DNA of 64,000 bases from Actinoplanes sp. SE50/110 (lineage in GTDB: Bacteria > Actinomycetota > Actinomycetes > Mycobacteriales > Micromonosporaceae). The stretch covers positions 1,906,001 to 1,970,000 of the forward strand of contig NZ_LT827010.1 in the NCBI RefSeq assembly GCF_900119315.1, in the 5' to 3' direction. Below the pieces are notes generated by a model. That model had not been told where the DNA came from and made no database searches. It worked only from the letters and a program-made list of their open reading frames with translations. Shown here piece by piece: positions 3,207 to 8,143 of this stretch (within the stretch, counting starts at the first letter, position 1; each line of letters opens with the position of its first letter). The position numbers and the translations under genes are program-made.

Positions 3207-4982
3207 TTGACCAGCAGCGCCAGCCGTGACGTGCTGGGACGGGGTCTGCGGGTGCTCGGCCACGCGATCCGCACGGAGCCTCGGCTCTTCACCGTCGGCA
3301 CGATCGGCAGCAGCCTCTTCGGGCTGCTCATCATCGCCAACTCATACGTGGTCGGCTGGGTGATCGGCCATGTCGTCGTGCCCGCCTTCGCCGAGCACCG
3401 GGCCACCGCTAGCCGGCTCGGCCTGGTCGCCGCGATCTTCCTGGGTGTCAGCGCGCTGCGGGTGGCCAGCATCTTCGGCCGCCGGCTCGGCGCCGGGTAC
3501 ATGCAGTTCCGGCTGCAGGCGCGGTACCGGGCCGCGGTCACCCGGCGCTACCTGTCGCTGCCGCCGGCCTGGCACCAGCGGCACGCCACCGGCACCCTGC
3601 TGTCCAATGCGAACTCCGACGTGGAGGCCGCCTGGGCGCCGATCGCGCCGCTGCCGTTCGCGGTCGGCACCGTGGTGATGCTGGCCGGCGCGCTGGTCTC
3701 GCTGTTCCTCACCGACTGGGTGCTGGCCCTGGTCGGAGCCACCCTGTTCCCCGCGCTGTTCGGGCTCAACCTGGTCTACTCCCGGCGGATGTCGCCGCGG
3801 CAGATCCGGGTCCAGCAGAACCGGGCCACGGTCAGCGCGGTCGCGCACGAGAGCTTCGACGGCGCCCTGGTGGTCAAGACGATGGGCCGGGAGGCCGACG
3901 AGTCCCGCCGGTTCGGGGTGTTCGTCGACGAGCTGCGCGACTCGCTGATCGCGGTCGGCCGGCTCCGCGGCCTGTTCGACCCGCTGATGGACAGCCTGCC
4001 CAGCCTGGGCACGCTGGCCGTGCTGCTGCTCGGCACCTGGCGGCTGCGGTCCGGCGCGATCGGGGTCGCCGACCTGGTCAGTGTCGCGTTCCTGTTCACC
4101 GTGCTGGCCTTCCCGGTGCGCGCGATCGGCTGGGTGGTGGGCGAGCTGCCGCGCAGCGTGGCCGGTTGGGACCGGGTCCAGGCGGTCCTCGGCGCGGAGG
4201 GCGACCTGGCGTACGGCGAGGGCACGCTGCCCGGCACCGGCCCCGCCGAGCTGCGCTTCGACCGGGTCTCCTACCGGTACGCGGACGGCCCCGAGGTGTT
4301 GCACGACGTGAGTTTCACCGTCCCGGCCGGCCGGACCGTGGCGCTGGTCGGCGCGACCGGCTCGGGCAAGTCGACGATCGCCTCGCTCGCCGTCCGGCTG
4401 GTCGACCCGGAGTCCGGCACGGTCGCCGTGGACGGCGTGAAACTTCCCGACCTGGCGCTGTCCGCGCTGGCCGGGTCCACCGCGCTGGTCCCGCAGATCC
4501 CGTTCGTCTTCGACGACACGGTGCGCGGCAACATCGCCCTGGACCGGCCGGAGGTGGACGACACGCGGGTCCGGACGGCGCTGGAACTGGCCCAGGCCGC
4601 CCGGTTCGTCGACGGGCTGCCGGCCGGGCTGGACACCCCGGTCGGCGAGCGCGGCACGTCGCTCTCCGGCGGGCAGCGGCAGCGGCTCACCCTGGCCCGG
4701 GCACTGGCCGGCAAGCCGCGGCTGCTGGTGCTCGACGACGCGACCAGCGCGGTCGACCCGCGGGTGGAGGCGGCCGTGCTCGGCGCGCTGCGCGGGGCGG
4801 ACGCCGGCGCGTCGATCCTGGTGGTGGCATATCGGCGGGCCACCATCGCGCTCGCCGACGAGGTGGTCTACCTGAACCGCGGGCGGGTGGTGGCGACCGG
4901 GACGCACACCGGGCTGATGGCGGCGCACGAGGGCTATCGCGAGCTGGTCACCGCATACGAGAAGGCCGAGGAGCGGCGATGA
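3207..4982 (+). CDS. ABC exporter, transmembrane-ATPase half transporter (degenerate NBD partner)
   Basis: About 591 residues: an N-terminal six-helix type I exporter domain (residues ~1-310) and a nucleotide-binding domain. Walker A is GATGSGKS, the signature is the canonical LSGGQRQR, but Walker B ends in LLVLDDATS with Asp in place of the catalytic Glu, and the H-loop His is replaced by Tyr (VVAYRRAT). Together with the next gene this fits a heterodimeric exporter with one dead ATP site. The TTG at 3207 is preferred because AGGTAGGAA sits just upstream; an in-frame ATG at 3153 and TTG at 3105 are alternatives. Its stop overlaps the next start (ATGA). Substrate unknown; lipid or drug export is typical of the family. 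Confidence 0.85.
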   Translation: MTSSASRDVLGRGLRVLGHAIRTEPRLFTVGTIGSSLFGLLIIANSYVVGWVIGHVVVPAFAEHRATASRLGLVAAIFLGVSALRVASIFGRRLGAGYMQFRLQARYRAAVTRRYLSLPPAWHQRHATGTLLSNANSDVEAAWAPIAPLPFAVGTVVMLAGALVSLFLTDWVLALVGATLFPALFGLNLVYSRRMSPRQIRVQQNRATVSAVAHESFDGALVVKTMGREADESRRFGVFVDELRDSLIAVGRLRGLFDPLMDSLPSLGTLAVLLLGTWRLRSGAIGVADLVSVAFLFTVLAFPVRAIGWVVGELPRSVAGWDRVQAVLGAEGDLAYGEGTLPGTGPAELRFDRVSYRYADGPEVLHDVSFTVPAGRTVALVGATGSGKSTIASLAVRLVDPESGTVAVDGVKLPDLALSALAGSTALVPQIPFVFDDTVRGNIALDRPEVDDTRVRTALELAQAARFVDGLPAGLDTPVGERGTSLSGGQRQRLTLARALAGKPRLLVLDDATSAVDPRVEAAVLGALRGADAGASILVVAYRRATIALADEVVYLNRGRVVATGTHTGLMAAHEGYRELVTAYEKAEERR

Positions 4983-6742
4983 GCGCCGAGGGGACGCTGG
5001 CCACCATCCGGCGCGGGCTGGCGCTCTCGCCGGAGCTGCGGACCGGGCTGGGCGGCACGATGGTCCTGGCGTTGCTGCAGATGGCCGGGCGGGTGGCCGT
5101 GCCGATCGCGGTGCAGCAGGGCATCGACCACGGGGTGCGCGCCCCGGGCGGCCCGGACGTCGGTGTCGTGGTGCGGATCGTCGGGCTGACCCTGGGCGCG
5201 CTGCTGATCTCGACGCTCTGCGGCTATCTGATGACCCGGCGGCTGTTCACGGTCAGCGAGACCGCGCTGGGCGGGCTGCGGTCGCGGACCTTCCGGCACG
5301 TGCACGACCTGTCGATGCTGCACCAGCAGTCCGAGCGGCGCGGTTCGATGGTGTCCCGGGTGACCAGCGACGTCGACCAGATCTCCCAGTTCCTGCAGAC
5401 CGGCGGGGTGCAGCTGCTGCTGGCGGCCGGGCAGCTTCTGGTGTCGGCGGCGGTGATGTTCGCGTACAGCTGGCAGTTGGCCCTTGTGGTTCTCCTCGCC
5501 TTCGGGCCGGCCCTGGGGGTGAGCCGCCTGTTCCAGCGGCGGCTGCGCGCGGTCTATCAGGCGTCCCGCGAGCGCACCGGCGTGATGCTGGGCGCGGTCG
5601 CGGAGAGCGTCGTGGGCGCCACGGTGATCCGGGCGTACGGGGTGGCCGGCCGCACCCAGGCCCGGCTGGACACCTCGATCGACTCGCTCCGGGTGGCCCA
5701 GCAGAAAGCCCTGCGGACCAGCGTGACCAGCTTCTCCAGCGGCGAGATCGGGGCCGGTCTGGCGCTGGCCGGGGTGGTGGTGACCGGGGTCTGGCTCGGC
5801 GTGGACGGGAAGCTCACGGTCGGGCAGCTGACCGCGTTCCTGTTCCTGGTCACGCTCTTCATCCAGCCCGTGCAGATCGCCACCGACATGCTGAACGAGG
5901 CGCAGAACGCGGTGGCCGGCTGGCGCCGCATCCTGGACGTGCTGGACGTCGAGCCGGACGTCGCCGACCCGGACGACCGCGGTGTCGAACTGCCCGCCGG
6001 GCCGCTGTCGGTGCGCTTCGCCGACGTGTCGTTCCGCTATCCGGGCGGTCCGATCGTGCTCGCCGGCGTCGACCTGGATCTGCCGGCCCGGCGCAAGTAT
6101 GCGGTGGTGGGCGAGACCGGCAGCGGCAAGACCACGTTCGCCAAGCTGCTGACCCGGCTGATGGATCCGGCGCAGGGGCGGGTGCTGCTCTCCGGTACGC
6201 CGCTGACCTCGGTGCGGTTCTCGTCGCTGCGGTCGCGGGTGGTGATGGTGCCGCAGGACGGGTTCCTGTTCGACGCGACGATCGCGGAGAACATCCGGTT
6301 CGCCGAGCCGTCGCTGACCGACGGGCAGCTCACCGCGGCCTTCGCCGAGCTCGGGCTCGGCGACTGGTTGGCCGGGCTGCCGGCCGGCCTGCAAACCCCG
6401 GTGGGGGAGCGCGGAGAGGCGCTCAGCGTCGGCGAGCGGCAGCTGGTGGCGCTGGTCCGGGCGTACGTGGCGGACCCCGACCTGCTCGTCCTGGACGAGG
6501 CGACCAGTGCGGTCGATCCGGCCACCGAGGTGCGCCTGCAGCACGCGCTGGACCTGGTCACCCGCGGGCGGACGACGGTGGCCATCGCGCACCGGCTGTC
6601 CACCGCCCAGGCCGCCGACGAGGTGATCGTGGTGGACGCGGGCCGCGTCGTGCAACGCGGCCCGCATGCCCGGCTCGTGGCCGAGGAGGGCTCGACCTAC
6701 GCGAAGCTCTATGCCAGCTGGTTGGAACAGACCCGCAGTTAG
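4979..6742 (+). CDS. ABC exporter, transmembrane-ATPase half transporter (catalytic NBD partner)
   Basis: 587 residues, translationally coupled to the preceding half transporter through a 4-base ATGA overlap. It has a six-helix membrane domain followed by an NBD with Walker A GETGSGKT, an intact Walker B with catalytic Glu (LLVLDEATS) and the H-loop His (IAHRLST). Its signature motif is the degenerate LSVGERQ instead of LSGGQ. The lesions are complementary to those in the upstream partner: the good composite site pairs this Walker A/Glu with the partner's LSGGQ. This is the textbook arrangement of heterodimeric exporters of the TM287/288 class. It converges with the S4 gene, the stop codons overlapping. 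Confidence 0.87.
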
Positions 6743-7347
6743 CGGGCGTAGTACTCGACGACCAGCTGTTCGTCGCAGAGGACCGGCACCTCGGTGCGCT
6801 GCGGGACGCGCACCACCGTGGTGCGCAGCTCCGCCAGGGCGGTGGACAGGTAGGGCGCGGTCGGCCCGTCGAGGTGCGCGCCGGTGGCGGCGATCTGAAA
6901 CGGCGGCTTCTGCCGGCTGGACTCGCGCACCTCGATCACCTGACCGGGCTGCACGCGGTAGCCGGGCCGGTCCACCTTCCTGCCGTCGACCGTGAAGTGG
7001 CCGTGCACCACCAGCTGGCGGGCCTGGTAGATGGTGCGGGCCAGCCCGGCCCGGTAGACGGTGGCATCCAGCCGGCGCTCCAGCAGGGTGACCATGTTCT
7101 CGCCGGTCTTGCCCCCGGCCCGGTGGGCGGCGTCGTACGCGGCCCGCATCTGCACCTCGCTGATGTTGTACTGGTGCCGCAGGCGCTGCTTCTCCAGCAG
7201 CCGGACCTGGTAGTCCGAGCTCTTGCGCCGGCCGCGGCCGTGCACGCCCGGCGGGAACGGGCGCCGCTCGAAGTACTTCACACACTTGCGGGTCAGCGGG
7301 ATGCCCAGCGCCCGGGACAGCTTCGCTTTGGGTCGGGAGTTGTTCAA
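6739..7347 (-). CDS. rpsD: 30S ribosomal protein S4 (probable second copy)
   Basis: 202 residues, full length for S4. The start is TTG at 7347, preceded by AGGAG at the right distance, giving (M)[14 protein letters not shown]. Family blocks are clear: [34 protein letters not shown], the S4 RNA-binding fold around residues 90-150 ([30 protein letters not shown]) and the C-terminal [13 protein letters not shown]4 nucleates 30S assembly on 16S rRNA. In actinobacteria the housekeeping rpsD sits in the rpoA-rplQ ribosomal operon, which is absent here, so I infer this is a paralog. It is monocistronic, convergent with the exporter and divergent from the DUF2470 gene, with iron-box-like sites 15 bases ahead of its start codon. 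Confidence 0.93.
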
Positions 7348-7361
7348 CGCGGTTCTCCTGT

Positions 7362-7400
7362 TACGGTTAGCCTTGCCTAACTTAGGTAAGCCTAACCGGT
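7362..7400. promoter_or_regulatory. Two adjacent iron-box-like (DtxR/IdeR-type) operators between divergent genes
   Basis: Bases 7365-7380 and 7382-7397 form an inverted repeat of 16-base arms around one central C with 14 of 16 positions matching. Each arm region also resembles the 19-base IdeR/DmdR iron box (TTAGGTTAGSCTAACCTAA). Site A is 7362-7380 and site B 7382-7400; by eye each matches about 15-16 of 19 positions. The pair sits 15 bases from the S4 start and 18 bases from the DUF2470 start, so a bound repressor could control both genes. Iron control is inferred from the motif only. Confidence 0.7.
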
Positions 7401-7417
7401 GCCCGGAGGTGCTCGTC

Positions 7418-8143
7418 ATGCAACCCAGTCCCGCCGAGATCGCGCGAACCCTCGCCGCCGGTCACCTGCCCGCCGTCGCCCACATCGCCTGCCACCCCGG
7501 GCCGCTGCCGGTCCGGCACGTCACCGACGCGCAGGGGCGGCCGCTGCTCCTGGTGCCGGCCGGCAGCGCGCTGGCCGCCGCGCTGCGGCCGCAGCCGGGC
7601 AACGACGACGCCGCGCTGGTGCTGGACATCCGGGACGTGCCGCCGATGGTGACCTCGCCGGTGATCGGACGGGTCTGGGTGTCCGGCTGGGCGGCCCGGC
7701 TCGACGGCGACGAGGAGCGGGCCGCGGCCCTCGACTACGCCGACACGGATGCCTGCGGGGACCTGCTCGACGTGGGCGGGACACAGGCGATCTACCGGCT
7801 GGACGTGGCCGAGGTGCGCTTCGAGCGCGGTGGGCACCTGGTCGAGATCGACCCTGACGACTACGCCGCGGCGGCGCCCGATCCGTTGCGCGCCGTCGAA
7901 TTCGATCTGATCGCTGACCTCGCCGACCATCATTCCGCCGAGATGGGCGATTACGTACGACGTCAGCTGGGCCCCGCCGCGCATCCCGGCGACGAGCCGC
8001 GCGTGGTGCGGATGGACCGCTACGGGTTCGTGGTCCGTCTGAACGGCCGCAGCGCCCGGCTGGCGTTTCCCCGCCCGGTCAGCGACCGGCAGGACCTCGC
8101 CCACCTCCTGCACCCCATCCTCTGCCGCCGCTGCGCCGCCTGA
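7418..8143 (+). CDS. DUF2470 domain protein, HugZ-like flavin/heme-fold
   Basis: 241 residues from ATG at 7418, with CGGAGGT seven bases upstream. The N-terminal part (residues ~1-150) looks like a split-barrel pyridoxamine-oxidase-type fold ([27 protein letters not shown]). The C-terminal part ([26 protein letters not shown], then [22 protein letters not shown]) is a DUF2470 domain, which occurs at the C-terminus of heme-degrading HugZ/HutZ proteins. Heme or iron use is therefore a reasonable guess and fits the iron-box-like sequences directly upstream. Activity has not been established for this actinobacterial form. Confidence 0.78.

Follow-up and report, generated by a model that had tools for sequence, protein, structure and literature searches.

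Two adjoining iron boxes of the IdeR/DmdR type lie between a second, cysteine-free gene for ribosomal protein S4 and a divergent gene for a DUF2470 protein in Actinoplanes sp. SE50/110. The double iron box between these genes is real, and its match to the consensus is beyond chance. The best explanation, and one we consider likely, is that IdeR represses an S4 free of iron-sulfur, which replaces the iron-sulfur S4 at iron shortage. Many soil actinobacteria appear to keep such a spare metal-free S4 behind an iron switch.

The double iron box and its neighbours

The window, by which we mean the whole 64 kb stretch of DNA that was analysed, spans positions 1906001-1970000 of a single-contig genome of 9.24 Mb (G000). 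The features of interest, in window coordinates, are as follows.

7362..7380, minus strand: IdeR/DmdR-type iron box on the S4 side, TTAGGCAAGGCTAACCGTA; 15/19 to consensus, kept in relatives
7382..7400, plus strand: IdeR/DmdR-type iron box on the DUF2470 side, TTAGGTAAGCCTAACCGGT; 15/19 to consensus, found in relatives
7364..7398, strand-neutral: near-palindrome of both boxes, an inverted repeat with 17-base arms and a 1-base spacer
6739..7347, minus strand: C-minus (metal-free) ribosomal protein S4 paralog, 202 aa, TTG start; TIGR01017, PF00163, PF01479; Shine-Dalgarno AGGAG at 7355-7359
7418..8143, plus strand: DUF2470 split-barrel protein of the MSMEG_6519 / HOZ / HugZ kind, 241 aa; PF10615; Shine-Dalgarno GGAGG at 7405-7409

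The intergenic region (7348-7417) holds both 19-mers, one base apart as the initial annotation had described. Each half-site scores 15/19 against the IdeR/DmdR consensus TTAGGTTAGSCTAACCTAA, within the range of about 15-16 claimed for them. No other site in the window reaches 15/19, and outside the double-box cluster none reaches 13/19. In 200 dinucleotide shuffles of the window the top score was 14/19, and a chance palindrome is ruled out by two scores of 15 against that maximum. The palindrome arms (7364-7380 and 7382-7398) are 88% complementary and span 35 bases, not the 33 first given. Both divergent start codons do lie close to the boxes, but the gaps had been put at 15-18 bases; they measure 14 bases from the S4-side box to the TTG (7347) and 17 bases from the DUF2470-side box to the ATG (7418).

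We regard the window shuffle as the fair test of the box; a degenerate pattern searched across the whole 9.24 Mb genome had exact matches at the two half-sites only, on which it was itself partly shaped. Allowing up to three mismatches, the same pattern found 16+20 sites in the genome compared with 26+29 for a reversed control, and thus no excess. A sigma-70 promoter scan of 7300-7460 returned none, a result of little weight where promoters are actinobacterial.

This motif is the iron box of the host. We inspected nine further sites of the same kind in the genome, and five of them lie near iron-type genes as judged by Pfam: a ferritin, an FTR1 iron permease, a periplasmic binding protein of the Fe-siderophore type, a siderophore-interacting protein, and a PLP-dependent decarboxylase, which we take to be of the kind used for desferrioxamine. 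The remaining four have no evident iron gene alongside. A DtxR-family repressor gene at 7885049 has both the DNA-binding and the metal-binding domain (PF01325 and PF02742). The IdeR of Saccharopolyspora is described as binding a 19-bp consensus of the TTAGGTTAGSCTAACCTAA type as two dimers (PMC8464063), and from the sequence we infer that the host's IdeR would bind here as well.

The gene identities proposed at the outset, an S4 paralog and a DUF2470 protein, were borne out by Pfam and NCBIfam matches. A profile built from 19 DUF2470 proteins matches heme-binding MSMEG_6519 (PDB 5bnc) with an E value of 3.1e-16, also matches plant At3g03890-type proteins, and matches HugZ weakly. The AlphaFold model (pLDDT 91.9) is closest to heme-bound At3g03890 (6m0a, TM 0.77) and near MSMEG_6519. 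The DUF2470 domain and the overall fold are thus like those of MSMEG_6519, At3g03890 (HOZ) and HugZ, although identity to the solved structures is only about 17-24%. By sequence and fold the protein is of the heme-binding type, and heme binding is predicted. As a heme-iron-type protein it would be a natural member of an iron regulon.

On its other side the S4 paralog is convergent with an ABC exporter-type gene pair (4166-6742, plus strand), the 3' ends overlapping by 4 bases. This pair stays beside the paralog in many relatives (loci L049-L107) at 72-93% identity. Within 18 kb around the paralog there is no other site of at least 14/19.

Two kinds of S4

The genome has two S4 genes. The housekeeping one sits in the alpha operon rpsM-rpsK-rpsD-rpoA (L037), which rules out the window copy as the main S4 of the genome. 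Decay to a pseudogene is likewise ruled out, as the paralog is full length, conserved, and scores 205.7 bits with the NCBIfam equivalog TIGR01017 (cut-off 177.2). The housekeeping protein has four N-terminal cysteines in the arrangement CX2C-X13-CX4C, aligned with Cys 9, 12, 26 and 31 of Thermus thermophilus S4. The paralog in the window shares 41% identity with it over the whole length, and the invariant S4 columns too, yet is without all four cysteines and without a short insert of the housekeeping form. The same division holds widely. None of 157 paralog-type S4 proteins has a CX2C within its first 45 residues, and CX2C-X13-CX4C is present in 36 of the 38 C-plus genes that were read, the other two being out of frame at the N-terminus.

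In Thermus S4 these cysteines hold an Fe4S4 cluster. According to Rozov et al. 2019, it was first assigned by the Steitz group, and their own long-wavelength X-ray data confirm it (PMC6555806). In a 2023 paper on Thermus, eight ribosomal proteins are listed with zinc and a single one, uS4, with an iron-sulfur cluster (PMC10450194); the C-plus S4 pattern is given there as CXXC-CXXXXC. By analogy, the Cys4 site of the actinobacterial housekeeping S4 most likely carries a metal centre, Fe4S4 as in Thermus. A second L28 was also sought in the host genome; there is one L28 only, and so no zinc-type paralog for comparison.

Distribution of the box

Within the family, 150 genomes were surveyed, of which 112 had an intact paralog-type S4 in the initial listing; all 112 were examined. 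A box was scored when a site of at least 15/19 to the consensus, with W at four positions, lay no more than 200 bases upstream. A C-plus S4 was taken as present in the family on a match at E 1e-60 or better, and the cysteines were read directly in 38 C-plus genes in all. By these measures a box lies ahead of the paralog in 91 of the 95 genomes that have the cysteine S4 as well, and in 0 of the 17 in which the paralog type is the only S4. Fifteen of the latter belong to one genus and one each to two others. As a control, 50 mononucleotide shuffles of each upstream region gave a top score of 15/19, reached in 2 of the 112 regions. The initial annotation had made its proposal depend on conservation in relatives, and the box is kept across the family and in other families.

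The four exceptions in the family, with both S4 types and no box, are three g23 genomes and one g24 genome. At L128, L132 and L138 (g23) and at L144, the paralog of a genome with cysteine S4 has neither an iron box nor a DUF2470 gene detected beside it. Several loci were found later and stand outside the census. In G012 (L303) the paralog-type S4 is in two pieces through a frameshift, either a pseudogene or a sequencing error, and a 16/19 box lies between it and DUF2470. The third S4-like copies of G008 and G015 and the second of G141 (L304, L305, L306) are diverged, at 38-47% identity, and have no box. In G091 and G112 the C-plus S4 matches over residues 37-208 only, owing to a frameshift, and was counted as present. 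These housekeeping S4 frameshifts (L191 and L190, respectively), together with the DUF2470 of Phytohabitans flavus (L094), which is also in two pieces, suggest assembly errors. Where the flank covered was no more than 300-600 bases, the presence of DUF2470 is uncertain, e.g., in G081, G083, G095, G106, G122, G160 and 13 g12 genomes.

A class-wide sample of 128 genomes was also searched, and 39 paralog-type S4 genes of at least 52% identity were examined, G000 and G003 being counted in the family. Outside the family the box was present in all 14 genomes with two S4 genes, in which the second S4 was called C-plus from a match of 43-48%, with cysteines read in 9 of the 14. Where there was one paralog-type S4 the box was present in 5 of 25, and none of these 25 yielded another S4 when searched again. 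In these five (G170, G187, G191, G250, G270; L242, L243, L245, L246, L267) a strong box lies 41-61 bases upstream of the sole S4, and in all five DUF2470 shares the region. Shut-off of a sole S4 by IdeR would leave the cell with no S4, which implies partial repression, a second promoter, or a box that serves DUF2470 only. Four single-S4 genomes of one family (L266, L268, L269, L275) have a remnant-like box of 14/19 at 50-63 bases upstream of S4.

A strict rule, by which the box is present if and only if the cysteine S4 is, is rejected by contrary cases in 4/109 and 5/42 genomes, where the 109 exclude six loci of Sphaerisporangium, Streptosporangium and Actinomadura that were found through the box itself. 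The census tables are extreme by statistics meant for unrelated rows, and the rows here are related. On a 99-row tree, the cysteine S4 changes state 6 times and the box 10 times. The tree gives four supported independent contrasts, of which 3.2 on average run in the predicted direction and none in the opposite one, too few for significance.

We also scanned a collection of species genomes for the paired box by exact DNA match, blind to genes, with a pattern shaped on the boxes of relatives. Among the 60 places listed, 53 are beside an S4 paralog, 4 beside DUF2470 only, and 3 elsewhere. Since the scan used DNA alone and most matches fell beside these genes, the paired form is close to a signature of the S4 paralog and DUF2470. 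Six of the 53 are the matches in Sphaerisporangium, Streptosporangium and Actinomadura, all with a cysteine S4 too. The three elsewhere, judged by eye, are presumably beside a DtxR-like/FeoB-like pair (L061:3304), an FTR1-like permease (L078:3567) and a metal ABC transporter (L100:5180). They come from a Chloroflexi MAG, an Actinomycetales MAG and Arcanobacterium, respectively.

Some genomes hold the box without one of the two genes. In three Plantactinospora (L056, L076, L106) and one Micromonospora (L081) the paralog is gone, the cysteine S4 is present, and DUF2470 keeps the double box. In G014 the boxed paralog stands alone, upstream of a ribosomal operon that includes the cysteine S4, with no divergent gene; its relatives G013 and genus g12 have neither the cysteine S4 nor the box. 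The paralog lies beside the same ribosomal genes in G011, G099 and G013 as in G014. In G017 the box is upstream of a paralog that is preceded by a TetR gene in the same direction, again with no divergent gene. Each gene can therefore hold the box without the other. G014 and G017 are the only two genomes with a box at the paralog and no divergent gene at all; the divergent ORFs of G203, G214 and G269 were at first classed as other genes but could encode distant DUF2470 proteins (a weak match for G203, E 1.7e-4; no Pfam hit for G214). The converse loss is seen in G030, where S11 is directly followed by RpoA in one contig and the cysteine S4 is gone. The only S4 left there shares 76% identity with the paralog of the window and lies beside DUF2470 across a longer spacer, and the one remaining box (16/19) is at a distance of 58 bases from the start of DUF2470 and 442 bases from that of S4.

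Taken together, these distributions lend computational support to the idea, raised in the initial annotation, that iron control of an S4 copy could mean remodelled 30S ribosomes. The box is conserved within and beyond the family and stands before the paralog above all in genomes that have the cysteine-type S4 as well. Some genomes have a close relative of the paralog as their only S4, so the type appears capable of the whole job.

A possible iron switch in the ribosome

We propose that both divergent genes are controlled from the intergenic region between them and repressed there by IdeR. When iron is sufficient, Fe2+-loaded IdeR would occupy the double box and both genes would be off. With boxes at 14-17 bases from each start codon, IdeR bound there would be expected to cover or obstruct the two promoters. 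The iron-replete ribosome would use the alpha-operon S4 with its Cys4 metal centre, most likely Fe4S4. As iron falls, IdeR would release, the DUF2470 heme-binding-type protein would be made for the handling of heme iron, and the metal-free S4 would go into new 30S subunits instead of the iron-sulfur S4. The benefit would be four iron atoms spared per ribosome and 30S subunits that can be assembled whatever the Fe-S supply. G030 and g12 have the paralog type as their sole S4; an S4 of this type therefore suffices for life. Iron control of the S4 paralog is probably a matter of cofactor sparing. Besides IdeR binding, we infer derepression at low iron, a cluster in actinobacterial S4, incorporation of the paralog in cells with both forms, and the iron-sparing benefit itself.

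One rival to this explanation is that the box serves the DUF2470 gene only and the divergent paralog is a bystander, constitutive or otherwise controlled. We think this unlikely, though several observations fit it. The double box is kept with DUF2470 in the Plantactinospora and Micromonospora genomes that miss the paralog, all five boxed single-S4 genomes have an adjoining DUF2470, and the box is missing from all 36 single-S4 genomes for which a nearby DUF2470 was not detected (for 13 of the 36, within a 300-base flank only). The divergent ORFs of G203, G214 and G269 would point the same way if they are distant DUF2470 proteins. However, in G014 and G017 a box precedes the paralog although there is no divergent gene for it to serve, and G030, with S4 reduced to a sole copy, keeps the box near DUF2470 and far from S4. 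It is less likely still that the paralog is iron-controlled for some other benefit, in 30S decoding accuracy, in the response to antibiotics, or in binding RNA away from the ribosome. A uS4 mutant of E. coli is reported to show that S4 affects accuracy and stress tolerance (PMC8141631), and the paralog differs from the housekeeping S4 along its whole length, beyond the cysteine site. Yet the paralog type serves as sole S4 in 17 of 150 family genomes and hence is a general S4, and the box is associated with the Cys4 form, as sparing predicts.

There is also the question of which metal is spared. We find it very improbable that zinc occupies the Cys4 site of the housekeeping S4 here and that the iron box is cross-talk or a historical accident. 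S4 was earlier treated as zinc-binding (PMC3087516), and eight other ribosomal proteins of Thermus hold zinc (PMC10450194). Against this, the X-ray data confirm Fe4S4 in Thermus S4 itself (PMC6555806). Zur control is ruled out for the window, which has 0 matches to a Zur consensus at up to three mismatches. Chen et al. 2009 report that Zur sites were sought and none was found near S4 paralogs, while the same two Salinispora genomes had Zur sites at the L33-S14-L28 cluster and at the L31 and L32 paralogs (PMC3087516).

In its widest form, ribosomes would be an iron pool under genetic control: the iron repressor would set iron-sulfur versus iron-free S4 in a large share of the actinobacteria, the Fe4S4 of S4 would serve living cells as a true cofactor, and in starvation both iron demand and ribosome properties would change with the switch. 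We see the case for this broad claim as evenly balanced. If true, it would provide genetic evidence from living cells for the iron-sulfur centre of S4, for which the reports we found are Thermus structures only. Among the matches listed in our literature search, which left most subscription journals outside, none describes an iron-controlled S4 paralog, and those on Actinoplanes and iron hold no expression data for the S4 paralog or DUF2470. A 2004 prediction places the main rpsD, another gene, inside a long predicted DtxR operon with secY in a corynebacterium (PMC524172).

The system can be set beside known ones. The usual targets of IdeR, DmdR1 and DtxR are siderophores, iron uptake, heme use and storage. 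The sites here are like the 19-bp TTAGGTTAGSCTAACCTAA-type iron boxes of other actinobacteria but form a tight pair between divergent genes, and whereas no dedicated ribosomal-protein-paralog target of these regulators was found in the literature searched, the candidate target here is an S4 paralog. Remodelling of the ribosome in metal shortage is known for zinc; the iron version is new as far as the literature searched shows. As in the Zur systems, there is a metal-binding housekeeping ribosomal protein, a cysteine-free paralog elsewhere, and a metal-repressor site upstream of the paralog. Unlike them, the metal here is iron, the repressor of the IdeR/DtxR type, the protein S4 and the cofactor a presumed Fe4S4, in place of zinc and a Zn2+ cofactor. 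The same gene kind, with C-plus and C-minus (type IV) S4 in one actinobacterial genome, is known from Frankia and from Salinispora, a member of the same family as the host. For the Zur systems, Chen et al. 2009 describe the C-minus paralogs of S14, S18, L28, L31, L33 and others in Bacillus, Streptomyces and Mycobacterium, and they report C-plus together with C-minus type IV S4 in Salinispora and Frankia EAN1pec, naming both S4 forms in proteobacteria and clostridia too (PMC3087516). They explained the S4 pairs by transfer from a Streptomyces source and by zinc economy, and left S4 regulation open; the word iron has 0 occurrences in the main text of that paper (PMC3087516). An iron switch, if true, would account for the poor fit of the S4 paralogs to the zinc model in 2009.
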